From Balneolales bacterium (lineage in GTDB: Bacteria; Bacteroidota; Rhodothermia; Balneolales; Natronogracilivirgulaceae), in contig SKNT01000125.1 of the NCBI GenBank assembly GCA_007120385.1, positions 1 through 35,890 of the forward strand: a DNA stretch of 35,890 nucleotides. Direction: 5' to 3'. The notes below the pieces were generated by a model. That model was not told the DNA's origin and searched no databases. It saw only the letters and a program-made list of their open reading frames with translations. The position numbers were made by a program, and so were the translations under genes. Positions within the stretch are counted from its first letter, which is position 1, and each line of letters opens with the position of its first letter. Of this stretch, positions 16,803 through 21,660 are shown one piece after another.

Positions 16803-17837
16803 ATGCACAAGCGGATGGTTCACAGTTTCCTGATCGGTTGCTCCGGGACCCTTTTACGGTTAATGACACTCTTGTTCACAATGTCACTGCTGTCAGCTTG
16901 CGGAGACGATCCATCCGACCCCCGCCTGTCATTCACCGAACGCTCACGTGACGTGCCGGCCTTTGACGCCGACTCGGCCTACAACTTCATCGCCGCACAG
17001 GTCGGCTTCGGTCCGCGCAATCCGGGCTCGGATGGCCACCGCCTCACCCGTGACTACCTGACCGGAAAGCTCAGGGAATACGCGGGACCGCGGGCCGTCT
17101 ACGTACAGCCGTTCACCCATACGGGGTACACCGGGGAGACCTATGAAATGAGCAACATCATTGCCGCTTTCCGCCCGGACCAGGGCGACCGGATCATGCT
17201 TCTTGCCCACTGGGATACCCGTCCGCGCGCCGAGAGGGACCCGGATCCGCGCCGGCGCAATGAGCCGATACCCGGAGCCGATGACGGCGGAAGCGGCGTG
17301 GGCGTTCTGCTTGAACTGGCCCGCATATTCCGCGACCATCCGCCGCCTGTGGGGGTGGATATCCTGCTCTTTGACGGCGAGGATTACGGGCGCGAAGGCG
17401 ACCTTGACTACTATTTCCTGGGTTCGCGCTACTGGTCGGCCAACCCGCCGGTTCCGGGATACCGCCCGCGTTTCGGAATTCTGCTGGATATGGTCGGTGC
17501 CAGAGACGCCGTCTTCCCCCGGGAGGGGTTCTCCATGCAGTATGCACCGCGCCTGGTCGATGAAGTCTGGCGGATTGCCAGTGAGCTGGGGCACGATGAT
17601 CTTTTTCTGGATGAGAAGGGATCGTCCATTGCCGACGACCACTGGATCATCAATCGCAAAACCGGCATCCCGACCATCAACATCATCCACCACAAACCTC
17701 CGCGTCCGATGCAACGGGACGTGTCGTTTCCGGATTACTGGCACACCCACGCCGACGACATGGATATCATTGACACCAAGACGCTCCAGGCGGTAGGCGA
17801 TGTGCTGCTGGAGCTGATTTACAACCGGATCCGGTGA
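16803..17837 (+). CDS. M28-family zinc lipoprotein, glutaminyl-peptide cyclotransferase-like
   Basis: 344 residues with a lipoprotein signal (long hydrophobic stretch to LLSAC, Cys33). The catalytic domain has M28/glutaminyl cyclase hallmarks: AHWDTRPRAERDPDP (His136 region), PGADDGGSGVGVLLELAR (zinc-ligand Asp around 160-161), LLFDGEDYG (Glu193), FLGSRYWSAN, GILLDMVGA and SSIADDHWIINRKTGIPTINIIHH. Glutaminyl cyclases turn N-terminal Gln into pyroglutamate; close relatives are aminopeptidases. The single-zinc-like pattern favours cyclase, but activity is inferred. An ATG at residue 5 is an alternative start. It lies between gatA and prmA on one strand. Confidence 0.85.
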   Translation: MHKRMVHSFLIGCSGTLLRLMTLLFTMSLLSACGDDPSDPRLSFTERSRDVPAFDADSAYNFIAAQVGFGPRNPGSDGHRLTRDYLTGKLREYAGPRAVYVQPFTHTGYTGETYEMSNIIAAFRPDQGDRIMLLAHWDTRPRAERDPDPRRRNEPIPGADDGGSGVGVLLELARIFRDHPPPVGVDILLFDGEDYGREGDLDYYFLGSRYWSANPPVPGYRPRFGILLDMVGARDAVFPREGFSMQYAPRLVDEVWRIASELGHDDLFLDEKGSSIADDHWIINRKTGIPTINIIHHKPPRPMQRDVSFPDYWHTHADDMDIIDTKTLQAVGDVLLELIYNRIR

Positions 17838-17894: not shown

Positions 17895-18743
17895 ATGAAC
17901 AGAACATACGTGAAGCTCAGACTCAGGATTCCGAAGGAAGAACAGGACCTGGCCGCCGACGACCTTATCGCTTTCGGCTTTGACGGATTTGAGCAGCTGG
18001 AAGGGGAGCTGGAAGCGTGGATTCCGGAGAATAAATTTACAGAAAACATCAAATTGCGTTTTGAGGCCTGGTTTGAGGAGCAGTCGGGTGGCCGGTGGCA
18101 GATCATCGGTGAGGAAACGGTGAAGGAGCGAAACTGGAACGAGGAGTGGGAGAAATCGATCCGTCCGCTCTCTGTGGGACGTTTCTTCATCCACCCAACC
18201 TGGTCTGACGAGAAGCTGCCCCCGGAGAGCATACCCCTTGTAATCGATCCTAAAATGGCATTCGGGACGGGTTATCATGAGACCACACGTCTGCTGCTTC
18301 GCCTCCTGCCGGATCATGTACGTCCGGGCGACCGGGTGCTGGATATGGGAACGGGAACCGGAATACTTGCGATTGCGGCCCTGCTCCTGGGAGCAAGTGA
18401 AGCTGCGGGCATCGATATTGACCCGTGGTGTTACGAGAATGCGCTGGAAAATGCCCGGCTCAACGGCGTCAGCGACCGGCTGGACATACGCATCGGTTCC
18501 ACGGAGCAGATTCCGTCCGTCGCCCGTTACGACATGATCCTGGCTAACATCAACCGCAATATCCTGCTGGATCTGGCCGGAACCCTGACCGGGCATCTGG
18601 GTCCGGGAGGCATACTGATGCTTTCCGGGATTATGGAAGAAGATCTGGATGCGATACTGGCCAGTTCGCATTACGCTTCCATGAAGCGCCTGGAAGAGCG
18701 CGGAGAAAACGAGTGGCGGGCACTTGTGCTGCAAGCAGGGTGA
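17895..18743 (+). CDS. prmA: Ribosomal protein L11 methyltransferase
   Basis: 282-residue SAM-dependent methyltransferase that trimethylates ribosomal protein L11. An N-terminal substrate-recognition domain (about 1-90) is followed by KERNWNEEWEKSIRPLSVG, the family-typical linker, and DPKMAFGTGYHETTRLLL. The SAM-binding motif VLDMGTGTGILAIAALLLGA starts near residue 148, and ILANINRNILLDLA is the NxN-type active-site segment. Length and order match PrmA throughout. It follows the M28 gene and precedes the sigma factor by 106 bases. Confidence 0.94.
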   Translation: MNRTYVKLRLRIPKEEQDLAADDLIAFGFDGFEQLEGELEAWIPENKFTENIKLRFEAWFEEQSGGRWQIIGEETVKERNWNEEWEKSIRPLSVGRFFIHPTWSDEKLPPESIPLVIDPKMAFGTGYHETTRLLLRLLPDHVRPGDRVLDMGTGTGILAIAALLLGASEAAGIDIDPWCYENALENARLNGVSDRLDIRIGSTEQIPSVARYDMILANINRNILLDLAGTLTGHLGPGGILMLSGIMEEDLDAILASSHYASMKRLEERGENEWRALVLQAG

Positions 18744-18849: not shown

Positions 18850-19452
18850 GTGACACAAAAAAACACATCAACGGACAGCAGTCGCAAGGATCTTGTCTTT
18901 GTGGAAGCGGCGCTTGCCGGTGACCAGCAGGCCTATCAGCAACTGGTGGACAAATACCAGCGCGCCCTGTACTTCCACATCCTGAAACTGGTTCGGAACC
19001 GCGATGTGGTGGACGACCTGGTCCAGGAGGCGTTCCTCAAAGCATTTGACAGCCTGGAATCCTACAACCGGCAATATGCCTTCTCAACCTGGATATACCG
19101 GATCGCTACCAACAACAGCATCGACTATCTCCGGAAGAAGAAACTCAGCACACTTTCCATCGACGAGCCGGTGCAGGGCAAAGACGGCGAGATGCATATG
19201 GAACTGGCGGATGAGTCGGCGGACACAGACCGGGAAATCATCGTGAAACAGCGTCGCAGTATGGTGCGCGATGCGGTGGAAGCTCTGCCCGAGAAATACC
19301 GGATCGTTGTTCGGATGCGCCACATGCAGGAAATGAGTTACGAGGAGATTGCCGAAGAACTGGCACTTCCGCTGGGAACGGTCAAGGCCCACATTTTTCG
19401 TGCAAGGGAATTGCTGAACAAGCATCTTAAGGACAGAATATCTGCCTATTGA
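18850..19452 (+). CDS. ECF-type RNA polymerase sigma factor
   Basis: 200-residue group 4 sigma factor. Region 2 spans about 20-95 (YQQLVDKYQRALYFHILKLVRNRDVVDDLVQEAFLKAF, then FSTWIYRIATNNSIDYLRKKK), and region 4 spans about 135-195 (LPEKYRIVVRMRHMQEMSYEEIAEELALPLGTVKAHIFRARELLNKHL). The linker is acidic. The start is GTG at 18850: an in-frame stop at 18829 and the lack of other upstream starts leave little choice. No anti-sigma factor of the usual RseA/FecR kind is adjacent. Instead a membrane protein with a voltage-sensor-like domain starts within 50 bases, probably on the same transcript. Confidence 0.92.
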   Translation: MTQKNTSTDSSRKDLVFVEAALAGDQQAYQQLVDKYQRALYFHILKLVRNRDVVDDLVQEAFLKAFDSLESYNRQYAFSTWIYRIATNNSIDYLRKKKLSTLSIDEPVQGKDGEMHMELADESADTDREIIVKQRRSMVRDAVEALPEKYRIVVRMRHMQEMSYEEIAEELALPLGTVKAHIFRARELLNKHLKDRISAY

Positions 19453-19500
19453 CGGTTTTGTCCGGTGTCCACGTCCACAACTGATCAACCAAGATCGAGT

Positions 19501-20646
19501 ATGTCACAAAGCAAATCCGTTAGGAGCGGGCAAATAGGTTTTTTTTTCCTGGATTTCCTGATGATCGCCCTGCTTGTGGTCAACCTGGCATGGATTGTCT
19601 TCGACTGGCTGTTTGAATATGAATTGATTCGCAGTTACCTGCACGGAGTGGCCCCGGATTTCACCGATATGTATGCGGCCACCATCCACCCCCGTTTCAT
19701 TCTCATCGACCTGATGTTTGTTTCGGTGTTCCTGACCGAATTTTTCATCCGCTGGGGCCTGGCGGTTTACCACCGGATCTATCACCGCTGGTTTTTCTTC
19801 CCCTTTATCCATTTTTACGATCTGCTGGGGTGCATACCGGTGGGCGGATTCCGGTTCCTGCGCCTTCTCCGCATCATATCCATCACTTACCGGCTTCAGA
19901 AACACGGGATCATCGACCTCCGCGATACCGCGGTAGTCCGTTTCATCCGGAAATATCACGGCATTCTCATAGAGGAACTCTCCGACCGTGTCACACTCAA
20001 CATCCTGAGCGATATCCAGCGCGAAGTACGCAACGGAGGACCTGTCGTCGACCGGATCGTCAACGAGGTAGTCATGCCGCAGCGTGAATCACTGGTGGAG
20101 TGGATGTCCCACCGCATCGAGAAAGTGGCCAACAACAATTACGAAGGGTACCGTGAGGATATCCGCCAGTATGTGCAGGAGCGTATCAACACCGCTGTGG
20201 ACGAAAACGAGGAGTTCGCGAGGCTGGAACTGATCCCGGTGTTCGGGTCGCTGTTCAGGAACACCGTGGAGAAGGCCATTGCGGACATGGTGTTCAGCGT
20301 GATCAACGGCATCATGCAGGATCTGGCATCGAATCGGAACCGTGTCCTGATCAACGAGACGGCCGATGTGCTTTTTGATGCCATCCTGCTCAAGGAAGAG
20401 GATACCGAACTGAACCGGCTGGTCGTTGACACAATGGACCGCTCCCTGGAAATCGTCAAGCAGCAGGTGCGCGTGCAGCAGTGGAAGCTGCGGGATCTGG
20501 CCGAGGACGAGGATCACTTCCGGGAGTTGCTCCGTGAGGAACTGATGAAAGCGTATGCGGAAACGGACACGGATACAGACATGGTCACGGAACCGGATGT
20601 TGAATCCCGTGCGGAGGATCCCGGTGACAACGCATCCAAAAAATGA
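19501..20646 (+). CDS. Membrane protein with voltage-sensor-like S1-S4 domain and no pore
   Basis: 381 residues from the ATG at 19501; a GTG at 19465 would add 12 residues. Four N-terminal membrane segments match a voltage-sensor layout: S1 about 14-37; S2 about 65-90 with FLTEFFIRW (Glu80, Arg84); S3 about 98-113 with FYDLLGCIP (Asp107); and S4 about 116-132 with arginines 118, 121 and 124 at three-residue spacing plus Arg131. No S5-pore-S6 follows. The remaining ~240 residues look soluble and helical, with heptad-like stretches (IVNEVVMPQRESLVEWMSHR, FRNTVEKAIADMVFSVINGI) and an acidic Thr/Asp tail. I do not recognise the soluble family. It lies between the sigma gene and queG with short gaps. 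Confidence 0.7.
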   Translation: MSQSKSVRSGQIGFFFLDFLMIALLVVNLAWIVFDWLFEYELIRSYLHGVAPDFTDMYAATIHPRFILIDLMFVSVFLTEFFIRWGLAVYHRIYHRWFFFPFIHFYDLLGCIPVGGFRFLRLLRIISITYRLQKHGIIDLRDTAVVRFIRKYHGILIEELSDRVTLNILSDIQREVRNGGPVVDRIVNEVVMPQRESLVEWMSHRIEKVANNNYEGYREDIRQYVQERINTAVDENEEFARLELIPVFGSLFRNTVEKAIADMVFSVINGIMQDLASNRNRVLINETADVLFDAILLKEEDTELNRLVVDTMDRSLEIVKQQVRVQQWKLRDLAEDEDHFRELLREELMKAYAETDTDTDMVTEPDVESRAEDPGDNASKK

Positions 20647-20655
20647 AGGACCGGC

Positions 20656-21660
20656 ATGACCGGAATGGCGAAAAATACCACCGAACGTACGGAGATGGTC
20701 CGTCAGGAAGCGCTGCGCCTGGGTTTTGACGCCGTCGGTTTTGCCAGGGCGCGCCGCCTGGAGGAGCAGGAGAGCCGGCTGGAGCAGTGGCTCAGGGAGG
20801 GGCGGCACGGAAAAATGGCCTACATGGAAAACCACTTCGACAAACGTCTGGATCCGCGCCGGCTGGTCCCGGGAGCGCAATCGGTCGTCTCGGTGATGAT
20901 GAGCTATCACCAGCCGGATCTTGCCGGGCGGCAGCTTGCCTCGGAGGAGCCGAAAATTTCAAAGTATGCCATGGGCGAGGACTACCACATGGTCCTCAAG
21001 GAGAAATTGTTCGAACTGTTCGCCTTCACGGAGTCGGTTACCGGCAAGGTGGAAGGGCGTGTTTTTGTGGATACGGCTCCGGTGCTGGACAAGGCCTGGG
21101 CCGTGGAATCGGGTGTCGGGTGGCTCGGAAAGCACACCAATGTGCTGAACCGCGAATGGGGATCCTGGTTTTTCCTTGGTGAGATGATCCTGGATGCGGA
21201 ATTTGACTATGACAACCCGGTGGCGGACCATTGTGGCACCTGTACCAGGTGTATAGATGCCTGTCCCACAGATGCCATCCATGAGCCCTACAAAGTGGAC
21301 GGCAGCAAATGCATCTCCTACTTTACCATCGAGCTGCGCGAAGAGATTCCGGAGGAGTATCACCGCCAGATGGGCGAGTGGATTTTTGGATGCGATATCT
21401 GCCAGGATGTGTGTCCGTGGAACCGCAAGGCGCGGCGCGGATCGGAGGAGCGCCTCTTTGCCAGGCCGGAGACGGCGGAAAAGGACATTGACTACTGGGA
21501 AGAACTGGACTTGCAGGAATACCGCAGGCTGTTTCGGCGCAGTACCGTCAAGCGGGCGAAATTTGATGGCATGAAACGGAATATCCGCATATCTGGTGCC
21601 AATCTGCGCGGATCGGACCGACGCTTTGTGAACGTGGCAGGCAAAAAAAAGCATCCGTGA
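20656..21660 (+). CDS. queG: Epoxyqueuosine reductase
   Basis: 334-residue cobalamin- and iron-sulfur-dependent enzyme that reduces epoxyqueuosine to queuosine in the tRNA wobble base. The N-terminal domain (ALRLGFDAVGFARARRLEEQ) and FVDTAPVLDKAWAVESGVGWLGKH are typical of the QueG family. Two 4Fe-4S clusters are evident in CGTCTRCIDACPTDAI and CDICQDVCPWN. The first ATG is preceded by gaagga at suitable spacing; an ATG at 20665 is possible. It starts 9 bases after the voltage-sensor-like gene. A terminator hairpin overlaps its stop. Confidence 0.95.
   Translation: MTGMAKNTTERTEMVRQEALRLGFDAVGFARARRLEEQESRLEQWLREGRHGKMAYMENHFDKRLDPRRLVPGAQSVVSVMMSYHQPDLAGRQLASEEPKISKYAMGEDYHMVLKEKLFELFAFTESVTGKVEGRVFVDTAPVLDKAWAVESGVGWLGKHTNVLNREWGSWFFLGEMILDAEFDYDNPVADHCGTCTRCIDACPTDAIHEPYKVDGSKCISYFTIELREEIPEEYHRQMGEWIFGCDICQDVCPWNRKARRGSEERLFARPETAEKDIDYWEELDLQEYRRLFRRSTVKRAKFDGMKRNIRISGANLRGSDRRFVNVAGKKKHP

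Follow-up and report, generated by a model that had tools for sequence, protein, structure and literature searches.

A widespread, unnamed family of pore-less bacterial membrane proteins with a truncated S1-S4 domain very probably homologous to potassium-channel voltage sensors

In this study, we analysed a stretch of 35,890 nucleotides (the window) from a Balneolales bacterium, contig SKNT01000125.1 of assembly GCA_007120385.1, in which genes for an M28-type peptidase, PrmA, an ECF sigma factor, a membrane protein and QueG follow one another on the + strand. The features to which the text refers are as follows.

16803-17837, + strand: M28-type peptidase, read from the open reading frame, upstream of prmA
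17895-18743, + strand: prmA, upstream of the sigma factor gene
18850-19452, + strand: ECF sigma factor (PF04542, E 7e-18; PF08281, E 2e-17)
19501-20646, + strand: open reading frame for the pore-less S1-S4 membrane protein of 381 aa, member of a conserved family
19522-19617, + strand: S1 helix, residues 8-39 (AlphaFold, conservation)
19696-19773, + strand: S2 helix, residues about 66-91, with Glu80 and Arg84 (Glu-x3-Arg) and with Phe77 at Glu minus 3 (conservation; aligned with the S2 of K+ channels)
19789-19839, + strand: short S3, residues 97-113, Asp107-x5-Pro113 (conservation, AlphaFold)
19843-19902, + strand: S4 helix, residues 115-134, with Arg118, Arg121 and Arg124 (RxxRxxR), all three in 65/65 members
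19930-20580, + strand: soluble helical C-terminal region, residues 144-360 (AlphaFold; no transmembrane hydrophobicity)
20518-20643, + strand: lineage-specific acidic tail, net charge -7
20656-21660, + strand: queG, tRNA epoxyqueuosine reductase (TIGR00276, E 2.5e-105), 9 bp downstream of the membrane-protein gene

The sigma factor and membrane-protein reading frames lie where an earlier note on this DNA had placed them, and Pfam confirmed the sigma factor. The note put the start of the second gene within 50 bases of the first; the distance from the sigma stop is 48 bases to the ATG at 19501 and 12 bases to an alternative upstream GTG at 19465. It had also seen no recognisable anti-sigma neighbour, and we likewise found no anti-sigma gene beside the pair, which is flanked by prmA upstream and queG downstream. 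The membrane protein matched no Pfam, NCBIfam or PADLOC family above cut-off, and a PHROGs search returned only weak matches to unknown families.

AlphaFold predicted four helices in order in the N-terminal part, with S1 at residues 8-39, S2 at 66-90, a short and broken S3 at 99-103 and 105-110, and S4 at 115-134. The model of S1-S4 alone (58 sequences) had a pLDDT of 84.4 and a pTM of 0.70, and the full-length model a pLDDT of 75.6 and a pTM of 0.43. Charge pattern and hydropathy fit a topology with both termini inside. Further helices were predicted at 144-177, 181-191, 195-235, 248-276, 280-296, 302-324 and 337-360, in a region whose conserved residues are Glu159, Arg163, Pro246 and Gly249 and for which a search of the PDB by sequence found no solved relative. 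The earlier description of a soluble helical region with an acidic tail thus holds for about 200 soluble helical residues and not for the tail as a family trait, since it is unconserved and missing from most relatives.

The membrane protein is a member of a widespread, unnamed bacterial family. Of 60 near genomes, 26 carry a member; others occur elsewhere in Balneolales, in seven genomes of another family of the same class (f12), in Alcanivorax, Alkanindiges and Acinetobacter, and in a few other Gammaproteobacteria. In Moraxellaceae the gene was present in 183 of the 199 genomes sampled, A. baumannii included. The Moraxellaceae protein resembles the window protein in a profile match over the whole length and belongs to the same family, but shares only 25-30% identity with it and sits in a different gene neighbourhood. 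Nearly all genomes have one copy; G018 has two (L015, L027). The homologue matches L010 (G013) and L009 (G019) each contain one in-frame stop; either these copies are trimmed or damaged, or the stops arose in sequencing. Homologues 48-90% identical occur in metagenome-assembled genomes labelled Cloacimonadota or Spirochaetales (L035, L040-L044) and are likely to be mis-binned contigs or recent transfers. The genome sets are samples that include many such assemblies, among which mis-binning may affect several records labelled 'Spirochaetales' and one labelled 'Cloacimonadota', and reading frames were called mechanically. In A. baumannii records the homologue is unannotated or named either 'hypothetical protein' or 'preprotein translocase subunit SecA'; one SecA-named homologue (L224, CP035931.1) has minC-minD-minE as its neighbours and comes from a record described as a plasmid. 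No family search supports the SecA name.

Conservation was counted over 65 non-redundant members with less than 88% identity. The earlier note had singled out an S2 glutamate with a nearby arginine, an S3 aspartate followed by a proline, and S4 arginines at 118, 121, 124 and then 131. These are indeed the residues that the family keeps: an acid at position 80, an acid at 107, Pro113 and Arg118, Arg121 and Arg124 each occur in all 65 members, Arg84 in 60, and position 131, an arginine in the window protein, is basic in most. Because of this invariance of the acids, Pro113 and the three S4 arginines, the S1-S4 signature exceeds chance. Trp85, Trp97, Pro101, Tyr106, Glu159, Pro246 and Gly249 are also present in 65/65, and Asp18 in S1, the helix that has Asn28 at its middle, is nearly invariant (64/65). 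Twenty further, divergent Moraxellaceae members retain both acids, Arg121 and Arg124 in every case (20/20) and Arg118 in 18.

Profile comparison indicates that residues from about 1 to 135 are very probably homologous to the voltage-sensor domains of bacterial K+ channels, so that the likeness the earlier note had drawn by eye held up. Against sets of K+ channels, hhalign gave probabilities of 91-97% and scores of 47-70. The main set scored 67.5 (96.9%). As the channels L200-L202 could bias this test (two had been found with the family profile itself, and L202 is the same channel as L200), the comparison was rerun without them, giving 50.0 (93.7%), and with six Kv-type channels picked only by PF00520, giving 46.9 (91.0%). 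By comparison, the highest score among 150 within-segment column shuffles, which preserve hydrophobicity and composition, was 28.8. Free shuffles attained no more than 20.7, and 60 shuffles compared with the combined Kv set no more than 22.6; reversing the profile gave 21.8. Two membrane families from the region that are unrelated to this one scored about 16 with a probability of about nil. A set of mostly Nav-type channels gave only 54%, and the higher scores of the Kv-type sets place the domain nearer to K+ channels. Searched against whole genomes, the family profile retrieved the K+ channels L200 (E 5.9e-4) and L201 (E 8.7e-4; per-genome values), with S2, S3 and S4 in register and TTVGYG filters. 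Both appear to be intact channels whose S3-S4 hairpin is likewise very short, and they are possibly the nearest channel relatives of the family. A weak match of the profile to the C-terminal region of an unrelated 477-aa protein (L199) was judged a chance helical match.

Could the protein instead be of unrelated origin, a four-helix membrane protein in which an arginine helix arose by chance? No significant PDB match was obtained by fold or by sequence (whole-protein phmmer and profile searches returned only designed helical repeats, an annexin and a TFIID subunit, all with E >1), and the Pfam Ion_trans family (PF00520) matched three members, all weakly, at best with E 0.065. Such a protein would nevertheless have to account for a profile-profile score at least about twice the best of the 150 segment-preserving shuffles, for independently chosen channels too, for the retrieval of K+ channels by the profile alone, and for the kept spacing of E-x3-R in S2 and D-x5-P in S3, which we take to be that of Shaker E293/R297 and D316/P322. 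We therefore consider an unrelated origin very improbable. With bacterial K+-channel voltage sensors (PF00520), particularly those whose S3-S4 linker is short (L200 and L201, for example), the family shares, in register, the S1 aspartate, the S2 acid-x3-R, the S3 D-x5-P and the S4 RxxR; it differs from them in having a roughly 200-residue soluble helical domain in place of S5-P-S6 and the selectivity filter, and its S3-S4 hairpin is even shorter than theirs, L200 and L201 included.

The family domain is a truncated form of the voltage-sensor domain, with a shortened S3. Between Pro113 and the first arginine of S4 there are only 2-4 residues, and the outer half of S3 is therefore missing. Of the four-helix signature proposed in the earlier note, S3 calls for correction. 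A Foldseek search of the PDB with the S1-S4 model gave 13 matches (E up to 10), 10 of them voltage-gated channels, including NavCt, KCNQ1, KCNQ2 and NavAb, with a best, non-significant E of 2.6 and TM-scores of 0.34-0.47; this predicted fold agrees with a voltage sensor and falls short of proof. The full-length model gave nothing significant, long-helix proteins dominating its matches.

This truncation raises the question of whether the domain still senses voltage. S1-S4-like domains serve as an anchor or dimer interface in several channels that are not voltage-gated, and the S1-S4 part of the family might likewise have become a membrane anchor or dimer interface for a C-terminal domain that does the work. 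Besides the truncated S3, only three S4 arginines are regularly spaced, at every third position, and the aromatic plug of the charge-transfer centre is not kept: position 77, which precedes the S2 Glu by three residues, is Phe in 31, Leu in 30 and Tyr in 4 of the 65 members. In addition, Glu159, Arg163, Pro246 and Gly249 of the C-terminal region are conserved equally with the S4 arginines. However, the S2 acid, the S3 acid and the three S4 arginines are retained almost throughout the family, even where identity falls to about 25%, which would be unexpected for a plain anchor. Loss of sensing is a real possibility, to which we give somewhat less weight than to a domain that still responds to membrane potential.

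The absence of pore helices, claimed in the earlier note, was borne out: nothing beyond residue 145 is hydrophobic enough for a pore helix. The family-mean Kyte-Doolittle hydropathy there never exceeds 0.70, compared with a maximum of 2.45 in S1, which leaves no room for hidden pore helices, and the family alignment showed no selectivity-filter motif. Eukaryotes are known to have voltage-sensor proteins that lack a pore. Among them, the voltage-sensing phosphatase has the same plan as the family, in which S1-S4 leads straight into a cytoplasmic domain and there is no pore. The family differs from it in being bacterial, in its truncated S3 and in a C-terminal domain that is not PTEN-like and has no recognisable enzyme motif; no Pfam match to a PTEN-like catalytic domain was obtained in any of 37 members. 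To our knowledge, what is new here is the combination of a pore-less S1-S4 domain with a soluble helical domain, and the bacterial setting. According to a 2023 review, every known prokaryotic voltage-sensor domain comes with a pore (PMC10377628). The family contradicts this rule and constitutes a conserved exception to it; in the open-licence PMC literature, our searches turned up no account of a voltage-sensor protein from bacteria that lacks a pore.

The other pore-less S1-S4 proteins to which the family can be likened are Hv1/VSOP and HVRP1 (TMEM266), and an Hv1-like proton channel, in which S1-S4 itself conducts protons, was considered. Fifteen of 85 members carry Asp28 in the middle of S1 (14 loci of the Moraxellaceae search, L253-L259, L265-L270 and L272, and L060), always together with Asp35; most members have Asn28. 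We infer from two score groups that the Asp28 loci of Moraxellaceae are Psychrobacter-like. Aligned indirectly through K+ channels, position 28 corresponds to Asp112 of human Hv1 (its sequence checked against PDB 5oqk), and Asp35 lies seven residues further on, like Glu119. On the other hand, position 28 is Asn in the window protein, whose S1 core is free of acids, the S4 tryptophan of Hv1 (RxWRxxR) is absent from the family, which has R-F/A-L-R-L-L/F-R, and direct profile alignment to human Hv1 was not significant (0.9%). An S1 aspartate placed in HVRP1, moreover, gave no conduction (PMC4148356). A proton channel is thus an improbable reading of the family, and owing to Asn28 we do not propose proton conduction for the window protein.

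As a hypothesis, the earlier note had suggested that the protein senses membrane potential and either governs the adjacent ECF sigma factor or is governed by it. The two genes are on the same strand, 12-48 bp apart and probably co-transcribed in the window, and within the taxonomic family of the window they adjoin in six genomes (G000, G004, G007, G008, G010, G011), five besides the window's own. In six other genomes of that taxonomic family, however, the pair is split, in five by opposite-strand genes: about 4 kb of them in G001 and G005 and a single gene in G013, G014 and G017, the sixth (G012) having a gap of about 0.8 kb. For the intervening gene in G013, a weak Pfam match suggests a beta-barrel-like protein. 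In G028 the two genes lie 1.6 Mb apart on one contig (sigma at 2.352 Mb, membrane protein at 3.979 Mb). The order was covered by 129 genomes, of which 116 carry the sigma orthologue (81 of the 84 good ones), among them 33 of the 34 sampled near genomes in which no membrane protein was detected. No orthologue of it was found beside the family gene in Alcanivorax, Moraxellaceae or other families of the order. These adjacency counts come from a six-frame search, as greedy calling of reading frames masks the sigma gene in a few loci, e.g., L011. Since the orthologue occurs across the order whether or not the membrane protein is present, and since the pair is split by opposite-strand genes in close relatives, the sigma neighbour is incidental, a matter of local rearrangement, and we place the sigma factor outside the system of the membrane protein. 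The functional pairing did not survive this survey, a lack of conserved linkage in relatives being a result that the earlier note had itself named as refuting: a sigma-linked sensor is refuted as a general system and retains next to no likelihood. queG is the steadier neighbour of the family gene in the window's taxonomic family.

A different neighbourhood was found in Moraxellaceae (loci L049-L107 and L253-L272), where nearly every locus examined has the family gene immediately upstream of minCDE. At most loci of Acinetobacter and Alkanindiges, a PlsC-like acyltransferase gene, the family member, minC, minD and minE follow one another on a single strand, usually with 4-36 bp before the family member and typically about 120 bp after it; Pfam confirmed the acyltransferase and the three Min proteins. 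In 18 of the 20 genomes with divergent Moraxellaceae members, minCDE also lies directly downstream, despite proteins that are far apart in sequence. In the passage of PMC10369030 that cites Strahl and Hamoen (2010), collapse of the membrane potential is said to affect the oscillation and localisation of MinD. Because minCDE adjoins the family gene and MinD localisation depends on membrane potential, a link between the family and the Min system is testable; the position of a voltage-sensor-domain protein next to minCDE is no more than suggestive of it. The linkage is confined to Moraxellaceae, the neighbours in other lineages (Balneolales, f12, Alcanivorax) being queG, DUF6577, xthA or others, and synteny within Moraxellaceae alone may stem from common descent and not from a functional tie. 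In several genomes of family f4 of the order, a DUF6577 gene lies directly upstream of the family member (e.g., L154, L158). The gene aciT (ABUW_0098), considered as the Acinetobacter homologue, is a different gene, as minC is ABUW_3048 in the same strain and aciT lies elsewhere. A literature search with the presumed locus tags beside minC found nothing.

Taken together, there is about an even chance, in our estimation, that the family responds to membrane potential and passes a shift of S4 to its C-terminal domain. Arg118, Arg121 and Arg124 of S4, countered by Glu80 and Asp107, would shift with the membrane potential; helix 144-177 would relay the shift to the C-terminal domain, and this domain would then bind or release a partner. 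This partner would not be the sigma factor, and in Moraxellaceae the adjacent MinCDE would be the best candidate. In its most far-reaching form, which we regard as rather unlikely, a pore-less sensor passes the membrane potential to a cytoplasmic domain on a prokaryotic version of the voltage-sensing-phosphatase plan and makes the Moraxellaceae Min system respond to it, while the Psychrobacter-like branch may also conduct protons like Hv1.

In summary, analysis of one membrane-protein gene of a Balneolales bacterium led to a family that is present in almost every sampled Moraxellaceae genome and yet lacks both a Pfam and an NCBIfam model and in part bears the wrong name, SecA. If the family senses voltage, it would represent a dedicated electrical sensor in bacteria, and its place beside minCDE bears on how the membrane potential affects MinD and cell division.
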